Source of the DNA: Streptomyces tsukubensis
Lineage (GTDB): Bacteria > Actinomycetota > Actinomycetes > Streptomycetales > Streptomycetaceae
Length of the DNA stretch: 64,000 nt
Assembly (NCBI RefSeq): GCF_003932715.1
Contig: NZ_CP020700.1
Location: forward strand, 5,354,501-5,418,500
Direction: 5' to 3'
This document shows, piece after piece, positions 7,003 to 53,161 of the stretch (the first letter of the stretch is position 1; each line of letters opens with the position of its first letter). Made by a program: the position numbers and the translations under genes. The notes under the pieces were generated by a model. That model searched no databases. It worked only from the letters and a program-made list of their open reading frames with translations, and was not told the origin of the DNA.

Positions 7003-7025
7003 CGACAGCGACGGGCCGAGTGGCC

Positions 7026-7079: not shown

Positions 7080-7087
7080 CGGGGGCG

Positions 7088-9181: not shown

Positions 9182-9201
9182 TGCTCTGTGCGCCCCTCCT
9201 G

Positions 9202-9230
9202 TTCGGATCGTCCCCGAGAACGGAGATACT
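9202..9230 (+). promoter_or_regulatory. Candidate housekeeping promoter of the ferredoxin gene
   Basis: TTCGGA (9202-9207), a 17-nt spacer, then GATACT (9225-9230). It lies 67 nt before the ferredoxin start codon and fits a vegetative sigma-factor promoter, although the -35 box is weak. Confidence 0.45.
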
Positions 9231-9296
9231 AGGGGCGGGCATCGACGACGCCGCGCTCCCGCGCAAGCCACAGCCCTACCGAGGAGGAACGACAGC

Positions 9297-9617
9297 GTGA
9301 CCTACGTCATCGCGCAGCCTTGTGTCGACGTCAAGGACAAGGCCTGCATCGAGGAGTGCCCCGTCGACTGCATCTACGAGGGTTCCCGGTCCTTGTACAT
9401 CCACCCCGACGAGTGCGTCGACTGTGGTGCCTGTGAGCCGGTCTGCCCCGTCGAGGCGATCTTCTACGAGGACGACACGCCGGAGGAGTGGAAGGACTAC
9501 TACAAGGCGAACGTCGAGTTCTTCGACGAGCTGGGCTCGCCGGGCGGTGCCTCCAAGCTCGGGCTGATCGAGCGCGACCACCCCTTCGTCGCCGGTCTGC
9601 CGCCGCAGAACCAGTAA
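9297..9617 (+). CDS. fdxA: 7Fe (3Fe-4S/4Fe-4S) ferredoxin
   Basis: A 106-residue ferredoxin. The N-terminal MTYVIAQPCVDVKDKACIEECPVDC begins the FdxA pattern: C-x7-C-x3-CP in the first cluster and CVDCGACEPVCPVEAI in the second. The first motif lacks one of the four usual closely spaced cysteines, which is typical of the 3Fe-4S site in 7Fe ferredoxins. The protein carries electrons in the cytosol, for example to cytochromes P450 or other reductases. Start GTG 9297 follows a GAGGAGG ribosome-binding site. It sits next to dapC, an arrangement I recall as common in actinobacteria. A hairpin at 9652-9684 separates the two. Confidence 0.95.
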   Translation: MTYVIAQPCVDVKDKACIEECPVDCIYEGSRSLYIHPDECVDCGACEPVCPVEAIFYEDDTPEEWKDYYKANVEFFDELGSPGGASKLGLIERDHPFVAGLPPQNQ

Positions 9618-9651
9618 CCGGCGGTCGGCGGTCCGCCGATCACCGCACTGC

Positions 9652-9684
9652 CGGTCCCGTACGGTCGACGTCCGTACGGGACCG
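9652..9684. terminator. 13-bp perfect hairpin after the ferredoxin gene
   Basis: Arms 9652-9664 and 9672-9684 are fully complementary around a 7-nt loop. It may end or attenuate transcription between the ferredoxin gene and dapC. Confidence 0.65.
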
Positions 9685-9776
9685 TTGCGTTTCCGTTCCG
9701 GCCGTCCGCACCCGGTACGGGCTCGTCCCCATCCGGTACGGGCCCGTACGAGCCCGTACGAGAAAGAGAACAGCCC

Positions 9777-10937: not shown

Positions 10938-11003
10938 GCCGTGCCGGCCCCCGGTGCTCCCGGCCCGGTGCTTCCGGTACCGGGGAGCGGATACGCGGGT
11001 ACG

Positions 11004-11049
11004 GCGAAGGGGCCCGGGGAGCGGACGTCCGCTCCCCGGGCCCCTTCGC
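11004..11049. terminator. 46-bp perfect palindrome between convergent genes
   Basis: Arms 11004-11026 and 11027-11049 are exact reverse complements with no spacer. The palindrome separates dapC (plus) from the secreted repeat protein (minus, stop 11061), so it probably acts as a two-way terminator. Confidence 0.85.
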
Positions 11050-11060
11050 GCCACCCCGGA

Positions 11061-11558
11061 TCAGGTGAGCGGCAGGCTCTCCGTCGGCAGCGCGCTGACG
11101 GGCAGGCTGCCCGCCGTCAGCCCCTCGGTGGGCAGGCTCTCGGTCGGCAGCCCGCCCTCCAGGGAGCCCGCCGTCAGACCGCTTTCGCCCAGGGCCGTCG
11201 TCGCGCCGTCGGCGGTCTTGCCGAGCAGACCGCCCGCGTTGCCCGCGGCCTCGCCCGCGGTCTCCTGGGCGGCGGGGGCCGCCGTCCGGCCCGTACCGCC
11301 GACCGCCCGGCCCGCGGCGGGGACGGACTGCTTGACGGCGTCGCCGCCCGTCTGCCCGGCCAGCTCGGAGGTCTGCCGCGCGGCGCCGTCCAGGGTGCCG
11401 CTGACGCCGTCGGCGTCGAGCGCGGTCAGCCCGGCGACCGGTACGGCCTGCGCGAGGTCGACGGCGCTCGCGGAACCGGCCGCACCGACCACGGGGGCTG
11501 CGCCGGCCGCGATGAGCAGGGCGGCGCGGGCGATCCGACGGGTCAGGGGGAGGGACAT
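11061..11558 (-). CDS. Secreted small protein with LPTESLPTEG-type repeats, unknown function
   Basis: A 165-residue protein with a clear signal peptide (MSLPLTRRIARAALLIAAGA..., cleavage probably after ASA around residue 29). The mature part is Ala/Gly/Thr-rich, low in aromatic residues and without cysteine. It ends in repeats of the pattern L-(T/P)-x-(G/E)-S-L-P, with LPTESLPTEG and LPTESLP visible. I do not recognise the family beyond its being a Streptomyces secreted protein. Start ATG 11558 has an AAGGAG site 6 nt upstream. A promoter with a dyad over its -10 box lies about 100 nt upstream, suggesting regulated expression. Confidence 0.7.
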   Translation of the reverse strand: MSLPLTRRIARAALLIAAGAAPVVGAAGSASAVDLAQAVPVAGLTALDADGVSGTLDGAARQTSELAGQTGGDAVKQSVPAAGRAVGGTGRTAAPAAQETAGEAAGNAGGLLGKTADGATTALGESGLTAGSLEGGLPTESLPTEGLTAGSLPVSALPTESLPLT

Positions 11559-11650
11559 GATGCTCCTTGAGACGAGGGGGCATGGATGTTTCGCCGTGAC
11601 AACCGCGAGAAGGGCGGGGTAAGTTGCGGCACCCCGAGGTAAAGAGTTCG

Positions 11651-11690
11651 TAATGCATCGCATTATCGACCCTGGGTAAAAGCGGGCGAA
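11651..11690 (-). promoter_or_regulatory. Promoter with a dyad overlapping the -10 box
   Basis: Read on the minus strand: TTCGCC (11685-11690), 17-nt spacer, GATAAT (11662-11667). A perfect dyad TAATGC-N3-GCATTA (11651-11665) overlaps the -10 box and start region, a good position for a repressor. It drives the secreted protein ending at 11061. Confidence 0.5.
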
Positions 11691-11833
11691 TGCCGTCCGC
11701 CGCGACCGGCTGCCGAACCGTCACTTCCCTGGTTTTTCAAGGGTCTGGAGGGGTGGCGGGAGGGGTCGGCGGCCATCCGCCGCACCCAGGGGGGAGAGGT
11801 CCGACCGCTCACCCCTGCGGGGGACTTCCCGCA

Positions 11834-12865
11834 TCAGCGTTCGAGTCGAATGCGGACCGTGCCTGTGCCTGTGTCTGCTTCTGTTTCTGTGCCCGCGGAG
11901 CCCGCCGCCTCCGTCCGCCCGCCGCCGCCTCCATCGCCTCCATCGCGTGCATCGCGTACATCGCGTTCCGGCCCGCCCCTGCTCCAGCCCCCGTCCGCAT
12001 CGTCGGCACGCCACACCCGGCCGCCGTACGAGACCTCCGCGATCCGCAGCTGCTGGGCCCGGGCCACGGCCCAGTGCGCCAGCTCCCAGCCCCGCGCGGC
12101 CCCGCCACCGGCGACCGGACCGCCGGCCGTGGCCCCCGGACGCACCGGCACGGACACCTCCCGGGCACCCGGCCCCGCCGCGGCCCCCTCCGCACCCGCC
12201 TTCGGCAGCACGGCCGGGCCGAAGGCCCTCACCAGCTCGGCCCGGACCCGGGCCGGATCGCCCGCGCCCCTCGTACCGCTGCCCGGAACGCAGGTCAGCG
12301 CCGCGCCCGCCCGCCCGGTCAGCGCGGCGGCCAGCAGCGCCGCATTCGTCTCGTGCTTCGCGTACGCCTGCGGGAAACCGCTGCGCTGCACCCGCTGCGC
12401 GGCGACCGTCAGCGGCAGCCGCGAATAGCCGGGCACCGCCGCCAGACCGTCGTAGAACTTCCCGGCCGAGTACACCGGATCCAGGATCTGCTCCGGCGTG
12501 CCCCAGCCCTTCGACGGCCGCTGCTGGAACAGACCGAGGGAATCACGGTCGCCGTGGGCGATGTTCCGCAGCCCCGACTCCTGGAGCGCGGTCGCCAGGG
12601 CGATGGTGACCGCACGCTCCGGCAGCAGACGAGTGGTGCCGACCGCGGAGATCGTCGCCGCGTTCGCCGCCTGCTCGTTGCTCAGCTCGTACACCGGACC
12701 GCCGCCGCCCGAAGCGGCCCGCACCGTGCAACCGGGGGCGCCGTTGCCGGTGGACTGCTGCACCACGACATAGCCGATCAGCGCGGCGAGCACCGCGAAC
12801 CCGGCGGTGATACGCGGAAGCCGACGGGACGAGCGGACAGCGGGGACGTTCTCTGACACACGCAC
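11834..12865 (-). CDS. Membrane-anchored lysozyme-like protein
   Basis: A 343-residue protein with a basic N-terminus, one transmembrane segment (about residues 20-36) and an extracytoplasmic domain. The segment TIALATALQESGLRNI followed by DSLGLFQQRPS resembles the Glu-containing helix and following loop of lysozyme/transglycosylase folds (E-S-G-x-x-N, then LGLFQ). Glu94 is the candidate catalytic acid. The C-terminus is disordered, rich in Gly/Asp/Arg, ending in a TETEADTGTGT stretch. Streptomyces homologues are often labelled 'heavy metal transporter', which the sequence does not support. Start is uncertain between GTG 12865 and the next GTG two codons on; no good ribosome-binding site is present. 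Confidence 0.6.
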   Translation of the reverse strand: MRVSENVPAVRSSRRLPRITAGFAVLAALIGYVVVQQSTGNGAPGCTVRAASGGGGPVYELSNEQAANAATISAVGTTRLLPERAVTIALATALQESGLRNIAHGDRDSLGLFQQRPSKGWGTPEQILDPVYSAGKFYDGLAAVPGYSRLPLTVAAQRVQRSGFPQAYAKHETNAALLAAALTGRAGAALTCVPGSGTRGAGDPARVRAELVRAFGPAVLPKAGAEGAAAGPGAREVSVPVRPGATAGGPVAGGGAARGWELAHWAVARAQQLRIAEVSYGGRVWRADDADGGWSRGGPERDVRDARDGGDGGGGGRTEAAGSAGTETEADTGTGTVRIRLER

Positions 12866-12947
12866 ACCGTACTAGGCAGTAGGCGTTTTGCCCCGGGTCG
12901 TGCACTCTCGCCGCGGCTCCTTACCCGCCGCCGGTAGGGTCGGTCCC

Positions 12948-14027
12948 ATGCGCCCCACCACGCTCGACCTCCGCCTCGACGGCCCCGCCCTCACCGCCGC
13001 CCTCGTCGACTTCCCCTCCGTCAGCGGCGACGAGAAAGCCCTCGCGGACGCCGTCGAGGACGCACTGCGCGCGCTGCCGCACCTCTCCGTCGACCGGTAC
13101 GGCAACAACGTCGTCGCCCGTACCCACCTCGGCCGGGCCGAGCGGATCGTCCTCGCCGGGCATATCGACACCGTGCCGATCGCGGACAACGTTCCCTCCC
13201 GGCTCGACTCCGACGGCGTCCTGTGGGGCTGCGGAACCAGCGATATGAAGTCCGGGGTCGCCGTCCAGCTGCGGATCGCCGCCACCGTCCCCGACCCCAA
13301 CCGCGATCTCACCTTCGTCTTCTACGACAACGAAGAGGTCGCCGCCCATCTCAACGGCCTCGGCCTGATCGCGGACGCCCACCCCGAATGGCTGGCGGGC
13401 GACTTCGCCGTACTGCTCGAACCCTCCGACGGCGAGGTCGAGGGCGGCTGCCAGGGCACGCTCCGGGTCCTCCTCCGTACCAGCGGTGAACGCGCCCACT
13501 CCGCCCGCAGCTGGATGGGGTCCAACGCCATCCACGCCGCCGCCCCGATCCTCGCCCGCCTCGCCGCTTACGAGCCGCGCCGGCCGGTCGTCGAGGGGCT
13601 GGAGTACCGGGAGGGGCTCAACGCGGTCCGTATCGACGGCGGAGTCGCGGGCAATGTGATCCCCGACGAGTGCACCGTCGTCGTCAACTACCGCTACGCC
13701 CCCGACCTGGACGAGGAGCGGGCGCTGGCCCATGTCCGGGACGTCTTTGCCGGCTGCGGGGTCACCGAGTTCACCGTCGACGACCACAGCGGCGCGGCCC
13801 GCCCCGGCCTCACCCATCCCGCCGCCGTCGCGTTCATGAAGGCCGTCGGCGGCACTGCCCGGCCCAAGTTCGGCTGGACCGATGTCGCCCGCTTCAGCGC
13901 GCTGGGCGTACCGGCGGTGAACTACGGGCCCGGCAATCCGCTCCTCGCCCACAAGCGCGACGAGCACGTGGCCGTGGAGCGGATCTCCCACTGCGAGGAG
14001 AAGCTCCGCCAGTGGCTGACGTCCTGA
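12948..14027 (+). CDS. dapE: Succinyl-diaminopimelate desuccinylase DapE
   Basis: A 359-residue M20-family metallohydrolase releasing LL-diaminopimelate from its succinyl derivative. Metal-site motifs are in order: GHIDTVP (His and Asp), GCGTSDMKSG (bridging Asp), FYDNEEVA (catalytic Glu and ligand Glu), and the late His in NPLLAHKRDEHV. The intervening dimerisation domain contains GERAHSARSWMG. ATG 12948 has no Shine-Dalgarno, but TAGGGT lies 7 nt upstream, so the mRNA is probably leaderless. It works with DapC encoded at 9777. The product feeds both lysine and LL-DAP peptidoglycan synthesis, consistent with Streptomyces cell walls. Confidence 0.93.
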   Translation: MRPTTLDLRLDGPALTAALVDFPSVSGDEKALADAVEDALRALPHLSVDRYGNNVVARTHLGRAERIVLAGHIDTVPIADNVPSRLDSDGVLWGCGTSDMKSGVAVQLRIAATVPDPNRDLTFVFYDNEEVAAHLNGLGLIADAHPEWLAGDFAVLLEPSDGEVEGGCQGTLRVLLRTSGERAHSARSWMGSNAIHAAAPILARLAAYEPRRPVVEGLEYREGLNAVRIDGGVAGNVIPDECTVVVNYRYAPDLDEERALAHVRDVFAGCGVTEFTVDDHSGAARPGLTHPAAVAFMKAVGGTARPKFGWTDVARFSALGVPAVNYGPGNPLLAHKRDEHVAVERISHCEEKLRQWLTS

Positions 14028-14121
14028 GCAGCCCGTACGGCGAGAGAACGATCTAGGCTTGATCGAGGAACGACCAACGACGACGTCCGCGGTGCGGACG
14101 TCCGGCGGAGGGAGCAGGTCC

Positions 14122-14871
14122 ATGGGCAATCCCGATGGTGCGCGCGGCTGGGAGGAGCAGCGGCAGGGGCCGGTACTGCGCCGCAGAGACCAGGTCCAGC
14201 CCGGCACCACCGACCAGCGGCTGCTGGACACCGAAGGCGACTCCGAATGGGTCCACACCGACCCCTGGCGGGTCATGCGGATCCAGTCCGAGTTCGTCGA
14301 GGGCTTCGGCGCGCTCGCCGAACTGCCGAACGCGATCAGTGTCTTCGGCTCCGCGCGGACCCCGCAGGACACCCCGGAGTACGAGGCGGGCATCCGGATC
14401 GGCACCGCGCTGGTCGAGGCGGGCTTCGCGGTGATCACGGGCGGCGGACCCGGTGCGATGGAGGCCGCCAACCGGGGTGCCAGGGAGGCCGGCGGCGTCT
14501 CCGTGGGCCTCGGTATCGAGCTGCCGTTCGAGCAGGGGCTCAACCCGCATGTCGACATCGGGGTGAACTTCCGCTACTTCTTCGTCCGGAAGACGATGTT
14601 CGTGAAGTACGCCTCCGGGTTCGTGGTGCTCCCCGGCGGGCTGGGGACCCTCGACGAACTGTTCGAGGCGCTCACCCTCGTCCAGACCGGCAAGGTGACC
14701 CGCTTCCCGATCGTGCTCTTCGGCAGCGCCTACTGGAGCGGTCTCGTCGACTGGCTGCGGGACACCGTCGTCGCCCAGGGCAAGGCGTCCGAGCGCGATC
14801 TGCTGCTGTTCCACGTCACGGACGACGTCGACGAGGCGGTGGCGCTGGTCACCAAGGAGACCTCGCGCTGA
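14122..14871 (+). CDS. LOG-family (TIGR00730) nucleotide phosphoribohydrolase
   Basis: A 249-residue Rossmann-fold protein of the LOG / lysine-decarboxylase-like group. Signature motifs are ISVFGSAR, ITGGGPGAMEAANRGA and the phosphate-binding, catalytic-Glu motif PGGLGTLDE. Family members hydrolyse the N-glycosidic bond of (cytokinin) nucleoside 5'-monophosphates and are often mis-labelled lysine decarboxylases. Start ATG 14122 follows GGAGGGAGCAGG. A TAGGCT -10 box at 14054-14059 suggests its own promoter about 60 nt upstream. It follows dapE, as in M. tuberculosis (Rv1202 and Rv1205, from memory). A palindrome separates it from the convergent gene. Confidence 0.88.
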   Translation: MGNPDGARGWEEQRQGPVLRRRDQVQPGTTDQRLLDTEGDSEWVHTDPWRVMRIQSEFVEGFGALAELPNAISVFGSARTPQDTPEYEAGIRIGTALVEAGFAVITGGGPGAMEAANRGAREAGGVSVGLGIELPFEQGLNPHVDIGVNFRYFFVRKTMFVKYASGFVVLPGGLGTLDELFEALTLVQTGKVTRFPIVLFGSAYWSGLVDWLRDTVVAQGKASERDLLLFHVTDDVDEAVALVTKETSR

Positions 14872-14880
14872 GAACGTGAA

Positions 14881-14921
14881 CGGCGAGGGGGGTACGGGCC
14901 CGGCCCGTACCCCCCTCGCCG
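14881..14921. terminator. 20-bp-arm palindrome between convergent genes
   Basis: Arms 14881-14900 and 14902-14921 are fully complementary around a single base. It lies between the LOG-family gene (stop 14871) and the dihydropteroate-synthase-like gene (stop 14939). Confidence 0.8.
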
Positions 14922-14938
14922 CCGTCACCGCCCGCGGG

Positions 14939-15799
14939 TCAGGCCAGACCGCGGCGGGCCACCCGCGGCGCGCGGTGACCGGCGATCGCGGCCACCATCT
15001 CCAGCACCTGACGGGTCTCCGCCACCTCGTGCACCCGGTACACCTGAGCGCCCAGCCACGCCGACACCGCCGTCGTCGCCAGGGTGCCGATCAGCCGCTC
15101 CTTCACCGGCCGGTCCAGGGTCTCGCCGACGAAGTCCTTGTTGGAGAGGGAGACCAGGACCGGCCAGCCCGTGTCCGCCATCTCCCCGAGCCGGCGGGTG
15201 GCCTCCAGCGAGTGCCGGGTGTTCTTGCCGAAGTCGTGACCCGGGTCGATCATGATGCCGTCGCGCCGGACCCCGAGGTCCGCCGCCCGCTCCGCGAGGC
15301 CCACGGTGACCTGCAGGATGTCGGCCATGACGTCGTCGTACGCGATCCGGTGCGGCCGGGTCCGCGGCTCCACGCCGCCCGCATGGGTGCAGACCAGGCC
15401 CGCCCCGTAGCGGGCGGCGACCTCGGCGAGCTTCGGGTCGAAGCCGCCCCAGGCGTCGTTGAGCACGTCCGCGCCCGCCTCGCAGACCGCGGCGCCGACA
15501 TCGTGGCGCCAGGTGTCGACGCTGATCACCACCGACGGGAAGCGGCGCCGTACCTCGGCGACGAAACCGACGGTACGGCGGATCTCCTCCTCGGCCGTGA
15601 CCTCCTCGCCCGGTCCGGCCTTCACCCCGCCGATGTCGATGATCGCCGCACCCTCGGCCACCGCCTGCTCGACCCGGGCCAGCGCGGGTTCGTCGCGGAA
15701 CGTGGCCCCCTGGTCGTAGAACGAATCGGGGGTACGGTTCACGATCGCCATGATCACCGGCTCGTGCGCGGCGAATTCGCGGGTTCCCAGCCGCAGCAT
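14939..15799 (-). CDS. folP2: Dihydropteroate-synthase-like protein (FolP2 type)
   Basis: A 286-residue TIM-barrel of the pterin-binding family. The N-terminal MAIVNRTPDSFYD matches the DHPS loop 1 (usually MGVxNVTPDSFSD), and ISVDTWRHDV and DPGHDFGKN match later pterin-binding motifs. DHPS joins dihydropterin pyrophosphate and p-aminobenzoate in folate synthesis. The neighbours (LOG protein, DivIVA-domain protein, 3-methyladenine glycosylase I) match those of mycobacterial folP2 (Rv1207), not the folE-folP-folB-folK operon. FolP2 was reported, as I recall, to lack DHPS activity, so folate synthesis by this protein is uncertain. Start ATG 15799 follows AGAGGAGGAAA on the minus strand. Confidence 0.85.
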   Translation of the reverse strand: MLRLGTREFAAHEPVIMAIVNRTPDSFYDQGATFRDEPALARVEQAVAEGAAIIDIGGVKAGPGEEVTAEEEIRRTVGFVAEVRRRFPSVVISVDTWRHDVGAAVCEAGADVLNDAWGGFDPKLAEVAARYGAGLVCTHAGGVEPRTRPHRIAYDDVMADILQVTVGLAERAADLGVRRDGIMIDPGHDFGKNTRHSLEATRRLGEMADTGWPVLVSLSNKDFVGETLDRPVKERLIGTLATTAVSAWLGAQVYRVHEVAETRQVLEMVAAIAGHRAPRVARRGLA

Positions 15800-15931
15800 C
15801 AGCGGTTTCCTCCTCTGGTGGTCCGGCCTGCGACCCTAACTGTCGGACCGGCGTGGCACGATCAGCACCGGACGCATCATCCCTCGGGTCACTCCTCGGT
15901 CCTCGGGTTCCACGGGAAGGGACGCTCGCTC

Positions 15932-43803: not shown

Positions 43804-45468
43804 GTGGGACGACACAGCCGTAAGGGCCCCGCGCCCAAGTCCTCACCTCGTGCGGATTCCTCTCCTTCTTCTCCTTCCGGTTCCGCTGCTTTTTCCGCTC
43901 CGGCGGATGCGGGGCGTGCCTCCGAGGCCGGTCCTGACGCGGCACACGGTACGGGTGGGCGCGGTGCGCAGCCCGGGACGGACGCCGCCGCCTACGGCAC
44001 GGGCAGTGGTCCCGCCGGTGCGTACGGCGCCGGGGGGCAGCCGGGGCAGCCCGATGGCGGGTACGGCCCCGGTGGCTACGGCACCGGCGGCGGTTACGGC
44101 GCGGGTCCGCAGCCCGGCGGCGGTTACGGTACGGGCGGGCAGCCCGCTCCCGGCTACCACCGGAGCGCCCACCAGCCCGGCGACTACGGCACCGGAGCAC
44201 ACCACTCCGCCCCCGCGGGCCCGGGCGGCTTCACCGCCCCGCAAGGACAGGCCGGACCTGCCGCACCCGTCGGCTACGGTGCCGAGCACACGGCCACCGG
44301 GTACGGCGTCCCGCAGGCCCGCGGCGGCCATCCCGAGCAGCACGAGCCCGGGGGCGGCTGGGGAGCCGGGCCCGGAACCGCCGTACCCCCGCACTCCGGG
44401 GCTCCCACCGGGCAGCTGCCGCGGCCGTCAGGTCCGCAGGCCCCGCCCGGAACCGCCGCGACCGGATCCCGGATACCGGGCCCGCGCCGGGAGTTCGTCG
44501 ACGCATTCGACCCGTCCGGAGCGCCCGCGGACGGCACCGGCACGCTTCATGGAACCGAGGCGCCCGACGGTCGGCCCCGGGGCCCCCAGGCCCCCCATGA
44601 CGGGACCGCCGCCCCCGCCGCCGTACCGGACCAGCGGACTCCGCTCGGCGGTACCAAGAGCCGTACCGTCACCGGTATCGCCGCCGCGGCCGTCACCACC
44701 GTGCTGGCGATCATCGTCGCCGGGCAGGTCGCCACCGAGAACGAGCGCCGCGAGGAGACCGGGACCACGGGCGACGAGCGCGCCGAAGACACCGGACCCG
44801 CCTCGCGCTCCGACAGCCGCGACACCCCGCCGCAGCCCGCCCTGCGCGATACCAAACCCCAGGCCCCCACGTACGAACAGCTGATGGCGACCCGCTTCCC
44901 CATCGACCGGGAGTTCACCGGCAGCGGCACCTTCCAGGCCGTCCCGGGCTTCGACAAGGCGCCCGGCAAGGGGAAAGTGTTCCGCTATCGGGTGGATGTC
45001 GAGAAGGGCCTGAAGATGGACGGCCTGCTCTTCGCCACCGCCGTCCAGCGGACCCTCAACGACCGGCGCAGCTGGGCCGGGAACGGCGAGAGGACCTTCG
45101 AGCGGATCTCGTCGGGCGAACCCGCTTTCGTGATCACCCTCGCCAGTCCGGGCACCACCGACGTGTGGTGCGCCAAATCCGGGCTCAACACCTCCATCGA
45201 CAAGGTGAGCTGCGACTCCGCCTCGACGAGCCGGGTCATGATCAACGCCTACCGCTGGGGGCTGGGCTCGGAGACCTACGGGCCGGGCGCGATGTTCGCG
45301 TACCGGCAGATGCTCATCAACCACGAGGTCGGCCACCGGCTCGGCCACGGCCATGTGAGCTGCCGGACCGAAGGCGCCCTGGCGCCCGTGATGCAGCAGC
45401 AGACCAAGTCCCTGAACATCAATGACATCCGCTGCAGGCCCAACCCCTGGGTTCACCCGAAGGGCTGA
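43804..45468 (+). CDS. DUF3152 membrane-anchored protein with zinc-protease-like motif
   Basis: A 554-residue protein. The first ~280 residues are Gly/Pro/Tyr-rich, with GYGTGG- and GGYGPGGYG-type repeats. One transmembrane helix follows (about 288-306), then an extracytoplasmic DUF3152 domain (about 360-550). In that domain NHEVGHRLGHGHVSC (His507, Glu508, His511, with His515/His517) has the HExxH-like pattern of metzincin-type metalloproteases. GTG 43804 begins the basic MGRHSRKG. M. tuberculosis Rv3207c is a member next to moeB1 (Rv3206c). Proteolytic activity is inferred from the motif only. Confidence 0.82.
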   Translation: MGRHSRKGPAPKSSPRADSSPSSPSGSAAFSAPADAGRASEAGPDAAHGTGGRGAQPGTDAAAYGTGSGPAGAYGAGGQPGQPDGGYGPGGYGTGGGYGAGPQPGGGYGTGGQPAPGYHRSAHQPGDYGTGAHHSAPAGPGGFTAPQGQAGPAAPVGYGAEHTATGYGVPQARGGHPEQHEPGGGWGAGPGTAVPPHSGAPTGQLPRPSGPQAPPGTAATGSRIPGPRREFVDAFDPSGAPADGTGTLHGTEAPDGRPRGPQAPHDGTAAPAAVPDQRTPLGGTKSRTVTGIAAAAVTTVLAIIVAGQVATENERREETGTTGDERAEDTGPASRSDSRDTPPQPALRDTKPQAPTYEQLMATRFPIDREFTGSGTFQAVPGFDKAPGKGKVFRYRVDVEKGLKMDGLLFATAVQRTLNDRRSWAGNGERTFERISSGEPAFVITLASPGTTDVWCAKSGLNTSIDKVSCDSASTSRVMINAYRWGLGSETYGPGAMFAYRQMLINHEVGHRLGHGHVSCRTEGALAPVMQQQTKSLNINDIRCRPNPWVHPKG

Positions 45469-45701: not shown

Positions 45702-47876
45702 ATGCGGATCGGACTGCTCACGGACGGTGGCTGTGAGGATGCGTCGGGTGGCTCGGCGGGCTGGTGCGACCGGCTCGTGCGCGGGCTCGCGCAGCACGAG
45801 TTCGATGTCTACGCGGGCCACGCCGTATGCGCCGGGGGAGCCTCCGGCGCGGATGGTGCGGGACGGTCCCCGGATCCCGGCGCCCGGTGCTCCCCTCTGC
45901 CCTGGTCCCCTTCGGGACTGCCGCCGCAGGTGCGGACGGTCCGGACCGCGCCCGCGGGGCCGGCGGCCCGCGACGGGGGTGCCGCGCTGGGCCGCCGGGG
46001 GCGCCGACGCTTCCTCGAACACTTCACGGACCTGGTGACGGCCGTCCGGGGTGCGGGTGCAGTGAACTCCGCGGCTGATCCGGCCGGTTCGGTCCGCCCC
46101 GCCGGTGCGGCGGGTGCGGCCCGGTTCGCCGAAGGGTTGTACGGGCTCGCGGCACTCGCCGCTGAACACGGCGGGCTCGCCGCCGCCCTGCGCTCCGAAC
46201 CCGCCGTCCGGACAGTGGAATCCGTCTGCCGCACCCCCGGCGCACAACGGAGCGTGCACACCGCCGCCGTCACCGACTACCTGGCCTTCGCCGGGGAGTT
46301 GGAGCGGGCGCTGCGCCCCCTGTCCTTCGACTGGTACGGCGACGACGCACTCGGCTCCGTCGACCTCTGCCATGCCGTCTCCGGCGGCACCACGGCGCTG
46401 CCCGGCCTGTTGGCCAAACGCTTCTTCGGGGTTCCCCTGCTGGTCACGGAGTACGGGGTCGATCTGCGCGCCCACTATCTCGCCGGACACTGCGGAGGGC
46501 AGGGCGCCTCCACGGCAGCCGACACCTGCGGTGGGCACGGCGCATCCGCCGGACCGCTCGCGCCGGGCGCATCCGTCCCGCCCGGGGCGTCCCTTCCCCG
46601 GCTGAGTGCGCCGGTCCGCGCCCTGCTCGCGGCCTTCCGGCGGGCGCTCGCCGCCGAGGTGTACTCCCAGGCGGCCCTGATCACCCCCGGCGACGCCCGG
46701 ATCCGCCGCTGGCAGCAGAAGTGCGGCGCCGATCCGGCGAAGCTGCGCACGGTCCACCCGGGGGTGGACGCCGAGCGGTACGCCGCCGTCGGCGAGGCCG
46801 CCGACCCGGGCGACCCGTACACCCTCGTCTGGGTGGGCCGGACCGGGCCCGGGAAGGATCTGGTGGGCCTGTTGCAGGCCTTCGCCGAGGTGCACCGGCG
46901 TGAACCGCGGGCCCGGCTGCGGCTGTTCGCCCGGCCCGCGGCGGGTGAGGAGGAGGCCTGCTACCTCGCCCACTGCCGGTCGCTCGCCGCCCATCTCTTC
47001 GCCGCCGGTGCCTCCGATGACCTCGACGTCCATCCCGCGGCCGCCGGTCCGGTCTCCTTCGAGCCGCTCGGATCCGACGGCGGCCGGACGACCGCCGAGG
47101 CCTGTGCGAGCGGTGCCGTCACGGTCTCCGCCAGCTCCGTCGAGGGCTTTCCGCACACCCTCGTCGAGGCGATGCTCTGCGGCCGGGCCACCGTGTCGAC
47201 GGACGCGGGCGCGGTAGTCGAGGTCATCGGGGGCACCGGGCTCGTCGTACCGCCGCGCAGTCCGCGGGCCCTGGCCGATGCCTGCCTCGCGCTCCTCGGG
47301 GACCCCGCGCGGGCCGCCCGGCTCGGCGCCGCCGCGCGCTCCCGCGCGCTCGAACTCTTCACCGCCGACCGGAACACGGCCGCCTTCCGTGCGCTGTACC
47401 TGGAGGTGATCTCGCGCTCGCCGGTCCATCGCGACGCGGTCGGCGCGTACGGCGAACCGCTGCCGTTCGCCCGCCCGGCGGAGGCTCTCGTTCCGGTGGG
47501 GTGGGGCAGCAGCGCGCCCCAGGCCGGCGGGGGCTTGCCGGCGGGCCCGTCGATGGCCGGGGCGGCCGGGGGGCGCCCGTGGGCCGGGACGGTGGTCGGC
47601 GCCGGTCCGCTTTCCGGGTCCGGGTCCGGGTTCGGGTTCGGGTTCGGGTCAGGGGCGGGGGCGGAGGGTTTCGAGGGCGCGCTGTCCGGTGCGGCGGTCG
47701 GCGGAGGTGTGTGGTCCACCAGCGCGCCGACGTGGAGTTCGGTGCCCGGCCCGGCGCCGGACAGGAGCGCGTGGCCGGGTCCGGCGGTGGGTGCGAGCGC
47801 GTGGCACGGACCGGCGCCGGACGGGAGCGCGTGGCACGGACCGCTGGGCGTCGTGGTGAAGGAGGCCCGCACATGA
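45702..47876 (+). CDS. PelF-like glycosyltransferase (DUF3492 + GT4)
   Basis: A 724-residue glycosyltransferase. The N-terminus (MRIGLLTDGGCEDASGGSAG, then WCDRLVRGL) is the DUF3492 start found in PelF, the Pel exopolysaccharide polymerase. The GT4 domain (about 340-570) has TLVWVGRTGPGKDL and the acidic pair motif SVEGFPHTLVEAM. The C-terminal ~140 residues are low-complexity (FGFGFGSG; repeated AWHGPAP). PelF uses UDP-activated N-acetylhexosamines, so a similar donor is plausible. ATG 45702 follows GGGAGATCGGGGG. Its stop overlaps the ATG of the next gene (ATGA). It starts the four-gene cassette that lies between the DUF3152 gene and moeZ. Confidence 0.85.
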   Translation: MRIGLLTDGGCEDASGGSAGWCDRLVRGLAQHEFDVYAGHAVCAGGASGADGAGRSPDPGARCSPLPWSPSGLPPQVRTVRTAPAGPAARDGGAALGRRGRRRFLEHFTDLVTAVRGAGAVNSAADPAGSVRPAGAAGAARFAEGLYGLAALAAEHGGLAAALRSEPAVRTVESVCRTPGAQRSVHTAAVTDYLAFAGELERALRPLSFDWYGDDALGSVDLCHAVSGGTTALPGLLAKRFFGVPLLVTEYGVDLRAHYLAGHCGGQGASTAADTCGGHGASAGPLAPGASVPPGASLPRLSAPVRALLAAFRRALAAEVYSQAALITPGDARIRRWQQKCGADPAKLRTVHPGVDAERYAAVGEAADPGDPYTLVWVGRTGPGKDLVGLLQAFAEVHRREPRARLRLFARPAAGEEEACYLAHCRSLAAHLFAAGASDDLDVHPAAAGPVSFEPLGSDGGRTTAEACASGAVTVSASSVEGFPHTLVEAMLCGRATVSTDAGAVVEVIGGTGLVVPPRSPRALADACLALLGDPARAARLGAAARSRALELFTADRNTAAFRALYLEVISRSPVHRDAVGAYGEPLPFARPAEALVPVGWGSSAPQAGGGLPAGPSMAGAAGGRPWAGTVVGAGPLSGSGSGFGFGFGSGAGAEGFEGALSGAAVGGGVWSTSAPTWSSVPGPAPDRSAWPGPAVGASAWHGPAPDGSAWHGPLGVVVKEART
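47617..47655. repeat. Hexanucleotide repeat in the glycosyltransferase tail
   Basis: About six imperfect GGGTCC/GGGTTC units in frame, coding for alternating Gly-Ser and Gly-Phe residues. Copy number may vary among strains by slippage without shifting the frame. Confidence 0.6.
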
Positions 47877-49195
47877 CCGCCCCCGGGACCGCGGGACGCG
47901 GCGGGACCCCGCAGACCGCCGGGAGCACCGGGCTCCGGGGAGCCTCCGGGCGCCCCGGCGAGGGAGGCCGTACCGCCGCCGTACCGCCGTCTTCCACCGG
48001 TCCCCGTTCCGCCGCGGACGCGCCGCGACCGCCGGTCAGCCACGGCGGCTGGGACGCCCGTTCCCACGCCCTGCTCGGCCCCCGCGGCGGATCCGGGCCC
48101 GCCCCCGCCGCCGTACCCGCATCGGGGAAGCCGACCGCGGCCGGGCCCCGCAGGTCCGCCGACCCCGTCAAGGCGCTGCTCCACCGCCACAAGGACCTGT
48201 GCGAACGGGCCGTCGACCCGCTGGAGATCGCCGCCGGGCTGGAAGCCCACGGCATCACCGACCGGATCGCCGCCCGCTTCCGGCACCGGGACGTCTTCTC
48301 CCTCGCCGAGGAGCTGTACGCCCGGGTCCCCGGGAACACCGCCGAACCCGCGCCCCGGCCCGGCCCGGAGAACCGTCCCGCCCGCGGCGCCGCCCTCGCA
48401 CTGCTGCCCGGTACGGCCGCCGCGCTCGCCGCCACCGGCTGGACCCTCCTCGAAGGCCCCGCCCGTACGGCGGCCGCCCTCCTCGGCACGGCCGCCGTCA
48501 CCACTGCCGTTCTGCTCTGTCTGCGGCAGGGCCCGCTGCGCGCCCGAGGGCGGCGGCCGGTCCGCGCCGTCCGCACCGGGGCCGTGCATACCGCGGTGCT
48601 CATCGCCTTCGCCGTCTGCGGTCCGGGGCTGACGGCCCGGCTCACCACGGGCGGCCCCGGGGACGCGGTGCTGTTCGCCCCCGGCCCGCCGGCCGCCCTG
48701 GCGGTCTCCGTCGCGCCCGCGGCCTGGTGCGCCGGACTGCTGGCAGCCGGGGCCCGGCGCACGCTGGGCGACAGCCGCAGACTCGACGACTTCGCCGCCG
48801 GAATGCGGCCGCTGCTGCTGGGCGTCGCCGGGCTCTACACCACGGCCCTGGCCGCGGTGGCCGTGGCGACCGGGCTGCTGCTGACCGACGGCAGTACCCC
48901 CACCACCGCCGTCACCCTGGGCCTGCTGCTCTTCACCGCCCGGCTGCTCGCCGTCCACGGCTTCCCGGAGGCCGCGGCCACCGGGCTCGGTGCGGCCTGT
49001 GCCGGGCAGGCACTCGCGATCCTCCTGCTGCTCGCCGGACGGCTTCCCGGACTCGGCCTCCTGGCCCGGCCGGTCGACGCGGTGACGGCGGCCTGGGGCC
49101 CGGGCGCGGTCTCCGCCCTGGCCTGCGGAGCGGCGGCGGGCGGACTGCTCGTCCACACCACCGCCGTACTGTCCCGGGCTTCGGCCCACACCTAG
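47873..49195 (+). CDS. Polytopic membrane protein of the exopolysaccharide-like cassette
   Basis: A 440-residue protein. The first ~95 residues are disordered. A soluble segment follows (LLHRHKDLCERAVDPLEIAAGLEAHGITDRIA, then FRHRDVFSLAEELYARVP), which I take to be a conserved N-terminal domain. Then there are eight or nine hydrophobic helices from about residue 165 to the end. I do not recognise a named family. Overlap with the glycosyltransferase stop (ATGA, with GGAGG upstream) means they are translated together, so it is likely the membrane partner or exporter for that enzyme's polymer, perhaps filling the role of PelG. That role is inference. Confidence 0.75.
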   Translation: MTAPGTAGRGGTPQTAGSTGLRGASGRPGEGGRTAAVPPSSTGPRSAADAPRPPVSHGGWDARSHALLGPRGGSGPAPAAVPASGKPTAAGPRRSADPVKALLHRHKDLCERAVDPLEIAAGLEAHGITDRIAARFRHRDVFSLAEELYARVPGNTAEPAPRPGPENRPARGAALALLPGTAAALAATGWTLLEGPARTAAALLGTAAVTTAVLLCLRQGPLRARGRRPVRAVRTGAVHTAVLIAFAVCGPGLTARLTTGGPGDAVLFAPGPPAALAVSVAPAAWCAGLLAAGARRTLGDSRRLDDFAAGMRPLLLGVAGLYTTALAAVAVATGLLLTDGSTPTTAVTLGLLLFTARLLAVHGFPEAAATGLGAACAGQALAILLLLAGRLPGLGLLARPVDAVTAAWGPGAVSALACGAAAGGLLVHTTAVLSRASAHT

Positions 49196-49499
49196 ACGCC
49201 GACGGTTCCGGCGGACGGACGAGAACCCCCGGCAGGGGATCCGGAGCCCCCGCCCTCACCACGAGGCCCGGCCCCTCCGTACCCCTGCACCTGCCGCCCG
49301 CTGTCCCCTCCGTCCCGACCGCCTGTCCACCCCGCCGTCCGCATCCCGGACCGGGGCCACCCGCACCGCCGGGGCACCGAACCGTGCCCCGCGCGGCAGC
49401 ACCCCGCACCACCCCGAACGACCGCTGTGTGCCGTACCACCGGCTCCGCCGGATCAGCCGTCGCCGCCACGGGCGCGACACCGAAGGAGAAACGCGAAC
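49196..49499. other. Intergenic region inside the cassette
   Basis: About 300 bp of Pro-rich-coding-like sequence without a supported gene. It separates the two halves of the cassette and may carry a second promoter; the only clear signals are the ribosome-binding site and short leader frame that start at 49483-49500. Confidence 0.45.
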
Positions 49500-49553
49500 A
49501 TGATCCGCCAATCCCCAGCCAGGACCCGTCGTCAGGAAGGGGGCGTGCGATGA
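49500..49553 (+). CDS. 17-residue leader peptide coupled to the epimerase gene
   Basis: ATG 49500 has a good ribosome-binding site (GAAGGAG, 49483-49489). The frame codes 17 residues (MIRQSPARTRRQEGGVR) and its TGA overlaps the epimerase ATG (ATGA, 49550-49553). The geometry is that of a translated leader or coupling peptide. It is rich in Arg (5 of 17). Conservation is unknown, so it may be chance. Confidence 0.4.
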   Translation: MIRQSPARTRRQEGGVR

Positions 49554-50665
49554 GGGTGCTGCTGCTCGGAGCCAACGGCTTCCTCGGCCGCTTCGTCGCC
49601 GACCGGCTGCTCGCCGATCCGGCCGTCCATCTGACCACCCTCGGCCGCGGCGACGACGCCGACGTGCGCTTCGACCTCGCGGGCGGCAGCCCCGGCGCCC
49701 TCACCCGCTTTCTGACCGCCGTCCACCCCGGCGTCGTCATCAACTGCGCCGGTGCCACCCGCGGCGGGGCCCGCGAACTCACCCGGCACAACACCGTCGC
49801 CGTCGCCACCGTCTGCGAGGCGCTGCGCCGCAGCGGCTGCGGGGCACGGCTGGTGCAGGTGGGCTGCTCGTCCGAGTACGGACCCTCGCAGCAGGGTTCG
49901 TCGACCGCCGAGGACGCGATCCCGCGGCCCGGCGGTCCGTACGGAGTCAGCAAACTGGCCGCGACGGAGCTGGTGCTCGGATCCGGTCTGGACGCGGTCG
50001 TCCTGCGAGTGTTCTCCCCGGTCGGGCCCGGTACCCCGGCCGGATCCCCGCTCGGGCGGCTCGCCGAGGCGATGCGGCGCGCGATGCAGTCCGGCGACGG
50101 CGAGCTGAAGCTCAGCGGGCTCGGGGTGCAGCGGGACTTCGTCGATGTCCGGGACGTGGCCCGGGCGGTCCACGCCGCCTCCCTCTCCGCCGCCCAGGGC
50201 GTGGTGAACATCGGCACCGGGCGGGCGGTACGGCTCCGGGACGCGGCGGCGGTCCTCGCCAGGGTCGCGGGGTACGCGGGTGCCCTCCATGAACTGGACA
50301 CCCCGCCCGGACGGCCCGGACCCGGCGCACTCGGCGGCCCCGGCCCGCTGGGCCACGGCGGCCACTCGGGCCCGGTGAGCCACAGCAGTCACAGCAGTCA
50401 TGGCGGTCATGGCGGTCATGGCGGGCCGGTGGGGCACCCCGGTCACGGAGGACACGGCCCCCTCGCCGGCCACGGCATCGGAGCGCCGCGCTCCGAATCC
50501 GTTCTCGAACAGCTCGCCGCCACCCCCGTCCCCTACCCGGACGGCTGCGGCAACTGGCAGCAGGCGGATATCCGCACCGCCCGCGATCGGCTCGGCTGGC
50601 GGCCCCGGATCAACCTGGAGGAGTCACTCGCCGATATCTGGATGGAGGCGGCATGCCGCATCTGA
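49550..50665 (+). CDS. NAD-dependent epimerase/dehydratase (extended SDR) with His-rich insertion
   Basis: A 371-residue extended SDR enzyme of the nucleotide-sugar epimerase/dehydratase group. The cofactor motif is GANGFLG (residues 8-14), the catalytic pair is Tyr-x3-Lys in YGVSK, and VGCSSEYG supplies the usual Ser/Thr. Near residues 265-310 there is an insertion of about 45 residues composed of Gly, His, Ser and Pro with 11 His (GHGGHGGPVGHPGHGGHG), absent from ordinary family members. ATG 49550 follows AGGAAGGGGG. Its stop overlaps the next gene by 13 nt. It probably makes or converts the sugar nucleotide used by the cassette. Confidence 0.83.
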   Translation: MRVLLLGANGFLGRFVADRLLADPAVHLTTLGRGDDADVRFDLAGGSPGALTRFLTAVHPGVVINCAGATRGGARELTRHNTVAVATVCEALRRSGCGARLVQVGCSSEYGPSQQGSSTAEDAIPRPGGPYGVSKLAATELVLGSGLDAVVLRVFSPVGPGTPAGSPLGRLAEAMRRAMQSGDGELKLSGLGVQRDFVDVRDVARAVHAASLSAAQGVVNIGTGRAVRLRDAAAVLARVAGYAGALHELDTPPGRPGPGALGGPGPLGHGGHSGPVSHSSHSSHGGHGGHGGPVGHPGHGGHGPLAGHGIGAPRSESVLEQLAATPVPYPDGCGNWQQADIRTARDRLGWRPRINLEESLADIWMEAACRI

Positions 50666-51918
50666 GCACCGGCGGCGGAGCGGCCCGGTGCACCGGACGG
50701 CGCGGGCCGGGAGCGGCCCCGGGCTTCGCGGGCGCTCCGGGAACCACGGAACTGCCGGGCTCCCGGAGCTCCTCGGGCGCCCCGGGTGCTCCGGTTGTTC
50801 CCCGTACTCCCGATGTTCCGGGTGCTCCTGATGTTCCGGGGGCTCCTGGCGCTCCGGATTCGGCGGGCTTTCCCGGTCGCCCAGGCTTCTCGGCTGTTCC
50901 GGTTGTTCCGGGTTTCTCGGGTGCCCCGAGTGTCTCGGGTGTCTCGGGTGTCCCGGGTGGCCCTGGATTCCACGGTCTCCCGGGGGCCGGGCGTGGCCGG
51001 GAGCGGTACTCCGATCCGTATCCGGGCGGCGGCACAGCGGCCGGGCCCTGGGGCCGGCTGCGGATCGGGGTGCCCGGGTACGCCCATCCACTGCTCGCCG
51101 CGGCCGAGTGGGCGGAGCTCACCCGGCCCGGCATCCCGCTGGACTGGGTCGTCCTCACGGTGGCCAACGGGCCCGGCGACCGCCCGGACCCGCACTGTCT
51201 GGCCGCTGCCGGACGGCTGGTCAACGCGGGGGTACGGGTCCTGGGCCGGGTCGATCTCGCCGGGGGCGCCCGGCCCCTCGGCGAAGTCGTCGCCGACGCC
51301 GACCGCTATGCCCAGTGGTACCGGGTCGGTGGCTTCCTGCTGGACCGCTGCCCGGCCGACCCCGCCGCTCTGGAGGCGGTACGACTGGCGGTGACGGCCG
51401 TGCGGACGGTCGCCGAAGGCGCCGGAACGCGGGCCGTGGGCGGCTGCGGACGGCGCCGGACCGGAAGCGGGGCCTGGGCCGGTCCCGGGAGTACGGGCCG
51501 GGCGGCCGGGACCGGGAACCCGGACGCGTACGTCGTCCTCGGCCACGGCAGGCATCCGCACCCCGCCTACGCGGATCTCGCCGACCAACTGGTCACCTTC
51601 TCCGGGCCCTGGGCGGACTACCGCTGGTCACAGGCGGCCCAGTGGACGGCCGACCATCCGCCGGAGCGGTTCGCCCACTTCGTCCACGGGGTGCCGCGCA
51701 CCCATCTCGAAGAGGCCGCCCGGATCGCCCGCTGGCAAGGCGCGGCGACCGTCTTCTTCACCGACCGGCCGGGCGGCGACCCGGCCGGCTTCGGCACCAC
51801 GCCCCCGGCAGCGGCCGGGGTCTCCGAAGCCTCCGGCGGACATTCCGGGGCATTCGAGAGCCTGCCCGGCTACTGGGACGAATTCGTCTCGCAGATCGGA
51901 CCAGGTGTCTCGGAATGA
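50653..51918 (+). CDS. Spherulin-4-family protein with collagen-like N-terminus
   Basis: A 421-residue protein. Residues about 20-112 are a collagen-like tract of triplets (GAPGAPVVP, DVPGAP, GFPGRPGF, GVPGGPGFHGLPG). The C-terminal domain (about 136-415) matches the Spherulin-4 family: GVPGYAHPLLAAAEW, VLTVANGPGDRPDPH, AGVRVLGRVD, ADRYAQWYRVGGFLLDRC and WADYRWSQAA. This family includes GH135-type fungal hydrolases that cut galactosaminogalactan. No signal peptide is visible, so it may be cytosolic or exported by another route. ATG 50653 has GGAGG 5 nt upstream and overlaps the epimerase end. Catalytic acidic residues cannot be confirmed by eye; the usual Asp-Glu pair reads Asp-Arg here. Confidence 0.8.
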   Translation: MPHLSTGGGAARCTGRRGPGAAPGFAGAPGTTELPGSRSSSGAPGAPVVPRTPDVPGAPDVPGAPGAPDSAGFPGRPGFSAVPVVPGFSGAPSVSGVSGVPGGPGFHGLPGAGRGRERYSDPYPGGGTAAGPWGRLRIGVPGYAHPLLAAAEWAELTRPGIPLDWVVLTVANGPGDRPDPHCLAAAGRLVNAGVRVLGRVDLAGGARPLGEVVADADRYAQWYRVGGFLLDRCPADPAALEAVRLAVTAVRTVAEGAGTRAVGGCGRRRTGSGAWAGPGSTGRAAGTGNPDAYVVLGHGRHPHPAYADLADQLVTFSGPWADYRWSQAAQWTADHPPERFAHFVHGVPRTHLEEAARIARWQGAATVFFTDRPGGDPAGFGTTPPAAAGVSEASGGHSGAFESLPGYWDEFVSQIGPGVSE

Positions 51919-51982
51919 GGAGGTGCGTGGCAGTGTTGACGGGAGAACAACCGTATTGACTTACCCACGCAACGGAGTCCCC

Positions 51983-53161
51983 GTGTCGCTGCCACCCCTG
52001 GTCGAGCCCGCCGCAGAGCTCACCGTCGACGAGGTCCGCCGGTACTCCCGCCACCTGATCATCCCCGACGTCGGGATGGACGGGCAGAAGCGGCTGAAGA
52101 ACGCCAAGGTGCTCTGTGTGGGCGCGGGCGGCCTCGGTTCCCCCGCGCTGATGTACCTGGCCGCGGCCGGGGTCGGGACTCTGGGCATCGTCGAGTTCGA
52201 CGAGGTCGACGAGTCGAACCTCCAGCGTCAGATCATCCACAGCCAGGCCGACATCGGCCGGTCCAAGGCCGAGTCCGCGAAGGACTCGGTCCTCGGGATC
52301 AACCCGTACGTCAACGTGGTCCTTCACCAGGAGCGGCTCGAAGCCGACAACGTGATGGACATCTTCAGCCAGTACGACCTCATCGTCGACGGCACGGACA
52401 ACTTCGCCACGCGCTACCTCGTCAACGACGCCTGTGTGCTGCTCGGCAAGCCGTACGTCTGGGGCTCCATCTACCGCTTCGACGGCCAGGCCTCCGTCTT
52501 CTGGTCCGAGTACGGCCCCTGCTACCGCTGCCTCTACCCCGAGCCCCCGCCGCCGGGCATGGTCCCGAGCTGCGCCGAGGGCGGGGTGCTCGGAGTGCTC
52601 TGCGCCTCCATCGGCTCCATCCAGGTCACCGAGGCCATCAAGGTCCTCGCCGGTGTCGGGGAGCCGCTCGTCGGCCGGCTGATGATCTACGACGCCCTGG
52701 AGATGCAGTACCGCCAGGTCAAGATCCGCAAGGACCCGAACTGCGCGGTCTGCAGCGACAACCCCACCGTCACCGAGCTGATCGACTACGAGGCCTTCTG
52801 CGGCGTCGTATCCGAGGAGGCCCAGGAGGCGGCCGCCGGTTCGACCATCACTCCCAAGCAGCTCAAGGAGTGGATCGACGAGGGCGAGAACATCGAGATC
52901 ATCGACGTCCGCGAGGTCAACGAGTACGAGATCGTCTCGATTCCGGGCGCCAAGCTGATCCCCAAGAACGAGTTCCTGATGGGCACCGCGCTCGAAGGAC
53001 TGCCCCAGGACAAGAAGATCGTCTTGCACTGCAAGACGGGTGTCCGCAGTGCGGAAGTGCTGGCGGTCCTCAAGTCGGCGGGATTCGCGGACGCCGTCCA
53101 TGTCGGTGGCGGTGTCATCGGCTGGGTGCACCAGATCGAACCCCACAAGCCGGTCTACTGA
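51983..53161 (+). CDS. moeZ: Adenylyltransferase/sulfurtransferase MoeZ
   Basis: A 392-residue fusion of a ThiF/E1-like adenylyltransferase (1 to about 270; GAGGLGSPALMYLAAAGVG, VDGTDNFATRYLVNDAC, zinc Cys pairs CYRC and CAVC) and a C-terminal rhodanese domain (about 290-390) whose active-site Cys is in HCKTGVRS. It activates sulfur-carrier proteins for molybdopterin, thiamine-type or cysteine synthesis by adenylation and persulfide transfer. I chose GTG 51983 (MSLPPLVEPAAELT), preceded by CGGAG; an upstream GTG adds 26 residues. The Streptomyces protein length of 392 fits. The gene follows the cassette and precedes convergent TAP genes. Confidence 0.95.
   Translation: MSLPPLVEPAAELTVDEVRRYSRHLIIPDVGMDGQKRLKNAKVLCVGAGGLGSPALMYLAAAGVGTLGIVEFDEVDESNLQRQIIHSQADIGRSKAESAKDSVLGINPYVNVVLHQERLEADNVMDIFSQYDLIVDGTDNFATRYLVNDACVLLGKPYVWGSIYRFDGQASVFWSEYGPCYRCLYPEPPPPGMVPSCAEGGVLGVLCASIGSIQVTEAIKVLAGVGEPLVGRLMIYDALEMQYRQVKIRKDPNCAVCSDNPTVTELIDYEAFCGVVSEEAQEAAAGSTITPKQLKEWIDEGENIEIIDVREVNEYEIVSIPGAKLIPKNEFLMGTALEGLPQDKKIVLHCKTGVRSAEVLAVLKSAGFADAVHVGGGVIGWVHQIEPHKPVY

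Follow-up and report, generated by a model that had tools for sequence, protein, structure and literature searches.

In the Streptomyces tsukubensis contig NZ_CP020700.1 (NCBI RefSeq assembly GCF_003932715.1, forward-strand positions 5,354,501 to 5,418,500), we analysed a 64,000 nt stretch, hereafter the window, that carries four adjacent genes encoding a PelF-like glycosyltransferase (GT), a polytopic membrane protein (MEM), an SDR-family sugar-nucleotide enzyme (SDR) and a Spherulin-4 protein (SPH). The four genes form a real cassette that is co-conserved in most of the Streptomyces examined. Its homology and gene order, together with a sister locus that has the full set and lies upstream of moeZ, show, at the level of sequence, that the cassette is kin to the galactosaminogalactan/Pel-type clusters. 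Taken as a whole, it is probably related to a bacterial exopolysaccharide cluster of galactosaminogalactan/Pel-like type but reduced in gene content, and a glycan would still be made and exported by it. The features discussed here are as follows (window positions).

45702..47876, + strand: GT gene, DUF3492 and GT4 domains, PelF-like
47873..49195, + strand: MEM gene, polytopic membrane protein (hydropathy and structure model)
49196..49549, + strand: gap of 354 bp between the two halves of the cassette
49550..50665, + strand: SDR gene, nucleoside diphosphate (NDP)-sugar epimerase/dehydratase/reductase type, 371 aa (Pfam, motifs and solved-structure match)
50653..51918, + strand: SPH gene, Spherulin-4/GH135 fold (Pfam, alignment and structure model)
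51601..51603, + strand: codon of S317 in SPH, at the position of Sph3 Glu222 (alignment columns)
51905..53161 (start possibly 51983), + strand: moeZ, downstream flank outside the glycan set (NCBIfam MoeZ, 753.4 bits; synteny)
43804..45468, + strand: DUF3152 gene, upstream flank (Pfam)

Conservation of the cassette

The first-pass annotation had described four same-strand open reading frames (ORFs) with overlaps within each half, and this is what we found: the GT and MEM genes are coupled by a 4 nt ATGA overlap, and the SDR and SPH genes share 13 nt. No match to a sigma-70-type promoter was present in the gap between the halves, and neither RNA families (at gathering score) nor tRNAs were found in the window. 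Pfam and NCBIfam scans were run on the longest ORFs containing the cassette proteins, and covered the four cassette proteins and three neighbours.

Conservation was assessed in the best 80 of 388 confirmed matches to a MEM profile (from 595 pattern matches) in genome contigs, all of which are titled Streptomyces bar one Kitasatospora and one 'Actinobacteria bacterium'. That homologues might fail to occur together had been named beforehand as grounds for abandoning the proposal; the genes do co-occur, with GT-MEM-SDR-SPH-moeZ in identical order and strand at 77 of the 80 loci. Two of the exceptions (L072 and L129) start at a contig end near MEM, so that the GT gene is out of view, and the third (L077) has no SPH match. 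The SDR/SPH start-overlap pattern was present at 79 loci. Because both gene order and overlap are kept to this extent, the co-occurrence goes beyond chance.

Among 296 genomes drawn evenly from the class, 31 belong to the window's genus, and MEM was matched in every one of these (31/31), each time with a DUF3492 match no more than 3.5 kb away; the MEM gene of one genome (G213) contains one in-frame stop. The S. tsukubensis genome itself (8.0 Mb) has a single DUF3492 match and a single Spherulin4 match at E≤0.001, both at this locus. Pfam Spherulin4 was matched at fewer of the 31 loci than gene calling and an SPH profile (A3) implied, and was dropped as a presence test since it missed copies that these two approaches later found. 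Gene calling at eight loci revealed an SPH-like gene in seven and none in L066 (G254). Profile A3 gave a strong match (E<1e-80) in 61 of 66 genus genomes, a denominator that rests on the sort order of the listing; G254, G414 and G432 had weaker matches alone, and G134 and G213 had none. The A3 total of 161/200 genomes was rejected as a count of cassette SPH genes, as A3 also matches the SPH proteins of two other cluster types, B and C, described below.

On the upstream side, the DUF3152 gene was found at 53 of the 80 loci. At the remaining 27 it was not found, some of these loci being cut short; in L062 and L065, genes that by eye resemble ABC transporters stand upstream of GT in its place. 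The window copies of two cassette proteins carry low-complexity expansions, namely repeats in the Gly/Pro-rich C-terminal tail of GT (47604-47843) and the collagen-like N-terminus of SPH (50762-50984).

The Spherulin-4 protein

Membership of the Spherulin-4 family, as first proposed for SPH, was confirmed by a Pfam Spherulin4 score of 70.9 bits (cut-off 30.2) and by Foldseek, which returned Sph3 (5c5g) as the best match to the structure model (E 2.9e-10). Across 70 rows the GxWxxY motif kept its G, W and Y without exception. Residues were mapped to Sph3 through HMMER alignments with the residue names of PMC10485009, which gives Asp166, Glu167 and Glu222; PMC12054363 names Asp196 and Glu222. 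Glu222 is thus common to both papers, and the PMC10485009 set fits the solved chain with an offset of 50. In the window SPH, Asp166 is kept (D231), Glu167 is replaced by R232 and Glu222, the general acid/base, is replaced by S317.

Column counts were taken from a 273-row alignment, to which L066 and L077 gave no row. The Streptomyces set within it comprises 211 rows (120 homologues, 12 genus-genome loci and 79 of the 80 MEM-profile loci); it includes the Kitasatospora and the 'Actinobacteria bacterium', and a species may count more than once. None of these 211 rows has Glu at the Glu222 column, which is Glu in all 12 type-B rows, all nine type-C rows and all six rows from other clusters. Among 35 cassette-type rows outside the Streptomyces set, two keep Glu (L194, and L191, which is the same gene as in the sister locus L215) and two have Asp. 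To trace the loss, the SPH of L194 and the Asp-bearing SPH of L199 and L206, all from other genera, may be of use. Asp occupies the Asp166 position in 182/211 Streptomyces-set rows and in 21/21 type-B and type-C rows. By hydropathy, used without a signal-peptide predictor, no hydrophobic stretch preceded the SPH domain in any of the 97 measurable N-termini (of 120).

SPH is thus, to judge from these alignments, a GH135-fold protein without the canonical acid/base, in which cutting is apparently disabled. The proposal that SPH trims the polymer is not supported, because Glu222 is lost and no export segment was seen. An SPH domain without an active-site cleft would have counted against the proposal; on this point the analysis covered the catalytic residues of the cleft, of which one is lost. 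Public records label several Spherulin-4 homologues (e.g. P0132) 'phage tail protein', probably a misannotation that has been propagated.

The glycosyltransferase and membrane protein

The description of GT as a PelF-like DUF3492 and GT4 glycosyltransferase proved sound. Both domains scored above their Pfam cut-offs (DUF3492, 52.2 bits against 23.3; GT4, 61.6 bits against 27), and the score against the NCBIfam PelF equivalog was 63.2 bits, below the cut-off of 100; some public records nonetheless label close homologues PelF. No membrane segment was predicted by hydropathy. The window GT carries R380, K385, E481 and E489 (724-aa numbering), which we take to be donor-site residues. Among 120 homologues, the Lys and both Glu of ExxxxxxxE were present in all 120 and the Arg in 117, and all four residues are intact in the window, 13 type-B, 10 type-C and four other rows. 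A literature search pairing DUF3492 with glycosyltransferase found no paper, most subscription journals being outside its coverage.

MEM was without a match in Pfam (E≤1) or NCBIfam (E≤0.01). It has a conserved N-terminal motif, LCERAVDPLEIAAGLEAHG..DR.AARFRHRDVF.LAEELYARVP, and its structure model contains approximately nine long helices; together with the ATGA overlap with GT, these helices bear out the prediction of a coupled polytopic membrane protein. The model aligns best with MOP flippases, MurJ being among the five best structural matches, so that MEM may have a MOP fold; Foldseek with the model gave no significant match. A match to an unrelated transporter family would have spoken against the proposal; by sequence no transporter family was matched, and in the fold comparison MOP transporters rank first. 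Cassette MEM and the MEM of types B and C match at profile level (hhalign probability 99.4, E 2e-21).

The SDR enzyme

SDR scored 124.2 bits against Pfam Epimerase, and the motifs GANGFLG and YGVSK are present. Its median identity to the window copy is 92% over the first 265 aa (80 loci). The protein had been called epimerase-like: a sugar-nucleotide SDR it is, but the label 'epimerase' is not established, because the protein falls below every NCBIfam cut-off and its best solved-structure match is a GDP-6-deoxy-4-keto-hexulose reductase. In the window genome, a search for a LegB-type dehydratase returned six SDR matches, the best at 154.2 bits against a cut-off of 475. The window SDR has a His/Gly-rich insert in its C-terminal third, and is 371 aa long compared with 305-340 aa at the eight gene-called loci.

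Fuller clusters and a full-set sister locus

Two further DUF3492 clusters occur in the genus, type B in 13 and type C in 10 of the 31 genomes. The usual type-B order is Agd3-like, GT, MEM, 4,6-dehydratase, nucleotidyltransferase, SDR and SPH, and type C consists of Agd3-like, GT, MEM and SPH; SPH was not recognized in one locus of each type (L160 and L159, respectively). An ORF of ~500-780 aa, as called, precedes GT in 11/13 type-B and 10/10 type-C loci. The Agd3-like proteins that were aligned, eight of type B and all 10 of type C, are 49-56% identical to that of L215. When the window SDR was searched in eight genomes, the type-B SDR was the best non-cassette match in seven (43-49% identity); the eighth is the window genome (G000), which is without type B. 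Against LegB (cut-off 475) the type-B dehydratase scored 446.7 bits. The nucleotidyltransferase fell below every cut-off; its solved relatives include GDP-mannose-type enzymes. From the relatives of these two enzymes we infer that the product may be a 6-deoxy-hexosamine.

At several type-B and type-C loci, at most a few residues separate the SPH domain from a start codon placed at a gene overlap, so these SPH proteins also look cytosolic. Since those of L048 (10041-10703) and L049 (7451-8101) keep the Glu, seemingly without room for a signal peptide, it is possible that types B and C contain an active cytosolic GalNAc-ase.

The full-set locus, L215 (positions 4899-15886), belongs to a genome (G308) of another genus of the family. 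It encodes Agd3-like, GT, MEM, LegB-like, nucleotidyltransferase, SDR, GH135 SPH and GH114 (1.6e-77) proteins; after the GH114 gene come an opposite-strand radical-SAM gene and then moeZ. The window cassette is without four of these eight genes. The L215 SDR is 62% identical to the window SDR over 248 residues, with a common WMEAAC ending motif. Its SPH, in which Glu222 is kept, scored 191 bits with a cassette query against 174 with type B. Its GT was closer to type B by BLAST (57%, compared with 41% to the cassette).

By Pfam, the Agd3 matches of two Streptomyces proteins stayed below threshold (E 0.0037 and 0.0094), and L215 had none. A link from the Agd3-like gene of L215 and types B and C to Agd3 (6nwz) was obtained, at 1.5e-14, only with a profile bridged by L053, L055 and L056; without these three, 6nwz was not matched. 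The Streptomyces Agd3-like proteins (L048:2039-4183, L049:2416-4326 and others of types B and C), although under the Pfam cut-offs, keep the invariant DD and H..H motifs.

GT and SDR trees were built from 32 rows each, unrooted and drawn at the midpoint. In the GT tree the cassette rows of several genera lie on one side, followed by L215 (100/97) and then by distant actinobacterial rows (X) and types B and C; the first cassette branch is L194, the sole cassette-type row outside L215 that keeps Glu222. In the SDR tree L215 is sister to the cassette (96/79, weaker), and type B and B-like rows stand apart (97/99). An earlier GT tree, with 48 rows, had given the cassette, type B and type C one clade each; the cassette stem of 2.1 in that tree is partly a product of sampling, as it splits into shorter branches once L215 and other genera are included. 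In the SPH tree, from which L215 was left out, the cassette forms one clade beside long-branched distant rows and type B falls in more than one piece.

With the distant rows X taken as the outgroup, L215 is the sister of the cassette. Types B and C, L215 and the distant rows are all accompanied by an Agd3-like gene, so the simplest explanation of its absence from the cassette is loss. By parsimony, we infer that the cassette is a reduced derivative of a fuller cluster. Descent from type B itself was rejected, since the trees place the cassette with L215, and types B and C apart. The cassette had first been presented as an independent minimal system; with fuller Agd3-like/GT/MEM/GH135 clusters in the genus and a full-set sister locus, that view did not hold. 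L215, upstream of moeZ, shows one possible route of cluster reduction.

Expression and mutant data from Streptomyces coelicolor

SCO5174-5177 were taken as the cassette counterparts by counting back from SCO5178, which PMC4340878 names moeB, a putative sulfurylase, and from product names. In PMC3610822, SCO5174, SCO5175 and SCO5177 are among the most induced genes of unknown function in the second mycelium, with log2 values of 2.2-2.6 at 24 h and 3.0-3.8 (>8-fold) at 48-72 h. PMC6585502 reports that SCO5174 mutants made less actinorhodin, and that the mutant screen grouped SCO5174 with cell-envelope genes. The reading of the cassette given here offers a testable function for a conserved gene set listed among the most induced unknowns of the second mycelium.

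A model for the cassette and its alternatives

Making and export of a glycan, the first two parts of the original make-export-trim proposal, remain plausible given the intact GT4 residues and a possibly MOP-like MEM model, whereas trimming is not supported. In the scheme we favour, the PelF-like GT would act in the cytosol and polymerize a glycan built of amino sugars or 6-deoxy-amino sugars, the conserved N-terminal domain of MEM would dock GT, and the MOP-like MEM would carry the glycan through the membrane. SDR would make or tune the nucleotide-sugar donor. SPH, as an intracellular accessory that does not cut, may bind either the synthase or the chain as it grows. Since no deacetylase or GH114 gene is linked, the glycan would go unprocessed and probably stay cell-associated. 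Going by the S. coelicolor counterparts, the cassette would be switched on in the second mycelium. A more specific version, which we offer only tentatively, is that most Streptomyces carry a developmental glycan synthase derived from a bacterial galactosaminogalactan cluster, its hydrolase now a cytosolic, non-cutting sensor or guide of the chain; the polymer may be built from 6-deoxy-N-acetylhexosamine rather than GalNAc, because a nucleotidyltransferase, a LegB-like 4,6-dehydratase and an SDR occur together in the fuller clusters. As a GH135-fold protein lacking its acid/base is widely conserved, one can test directly whether polysaccharide synthases contain hydrolase subunits that do not cut.

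Some observations weigh against a non-cutting SPH. An acid (D/E) stands five residues past the Glu222 column (D322 in the window) in 204 of the 211 Streptomyces-set rows, compared with 2/35 other cassette-type and 1/21 type-B and type-C rows, and could be a relocated catalyst. A working make-export-trim system, in which SPH cuts with an acid moved from position 317 to D/E322 and is exported without a signal peptide, would also fit the retained fold and GxWxxY motif. It is nevertheless decidedly unlikely given the loss of Glu222 in all 211 Streptomyces-set rows, the incomplete retention of Asp166 in the same rows, the lack of any pre-domain hydrophobic segment and the SPH rows of genus g111, which have no acid at 317 in 26/28 and none at +5 in 27/28. 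Also unlikely, in our view, is that the cassette now makes no polysaccharide but an envelope glycolipid or a short glycan linked to lipid. A MOP-like MEM that flips a lipid-linked sugar is compatible with the MurJ match, with a cassette lacking deacetylase and GH114 genes, and with the grouping of SCO5174 in the mutant screen (PMC6585502). The closest relatives of GT and MEM, though, are found beside Agd3-like and GH135 genes, a context that points to a polymer, and no initiating sugar transferase was present among the seven window proteins scanned, the only place where one was sought.

That the cassette is a decaying remnant hitch-hiking with moeZ is very improbable. Gene content is reduced and the catalytic Glu lost, SPH is missing in L077 and G254 and without a strong match in 5/66 genus genomes, and the G213 MEM gene has its in-frame stop; but decay sits poorly with the gene order kept at 77/80 loci, the high SDR identity, the nearly invariant GT residues and the >8-fold developmental induction of three S. 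coelicolor counterparts (PMC3610822).

Comparison with known systems

CslA/GlxA and MatA/MatB are Streptomyces surface-glycan systems tied to development or pellets. With Pel systems (pelA-G; pelDEADAFG in Bacillus cereus), the cassette has in common a DUF3492/GT4 PelF-like GT, but its PelF score is sub-cut-off and it has no PelG. PelG (PF16933) gave no match in the S. tsukubensis genome, in a search whose control was positive in one of 14 genomes, Thermotoga maritima. As first noted, no PelA, PelD or PelE is recognizable: these families had no match among the four cassette proteins and three neighbours, the extent of that search. A minimal stand-alone Pel system was rejected, given the sub-cut-off PelF score, the lack of a PelG match in the genome and the existence of fuller Agd3-like clusters. 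In T. maritima the control searches with DUF3492, GH114 and PelG were all positive, and this organism would thus seem to have a Pel-like set.

No Agd3/CE18 gene lies between DUF3152 and moeZ in the window, and no such ORF was present at the eight gene-called loci; an Agd3-like paralogue query found no match in the S. tsukubensis genome, in a search without a positive control. GH114 (Ega3) likewise had no match there, with controls positive in 2/14. Among the titles listed in literature searches, with most subscription journals outside their coverage, none described this cassette, and its mode of reduction seems undescribed in the papers listed.

Compared with GH135 (Sph3), SPH keeps the fold and the Asp166 position, and in the window has Ser for Glu222 and Arg for Glu167. 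The bacterial agd3 operons described in Bamford 2020 (PMC7229062) carry a cytoplasmic GT and a multi-spanning membrane protein, as the cassette does, and in some Actinobacteria a Spherulin-4 gene; relative to that description, the cassette is without agd3, is linked to moeZ, has its GT and MEM in all 31 genus genomes sampled, has an altered Spherulin-4 and has an extra SDR. The same text proposes bacteria-to-fungi transfer of the galactosaminogalactan cluster. Common to the cassette and the Aspergillus cluster (uge3, sph3, gtb3, ega3 and agd3) are a GT with a membrane part, an SDR for sugar nucleotides and a protein of Sph3 fold; the cassette differs in lacking Agd3 and GH114, in the SPH without Glu222 or export segment, and in having GT and MEM as separate genes. 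L215 also matches the Aspergillus cluster in its Agd3-like and GH114 genes. The cassette ties bacterial glycans to the fungal galactosaminogalactan cluster.

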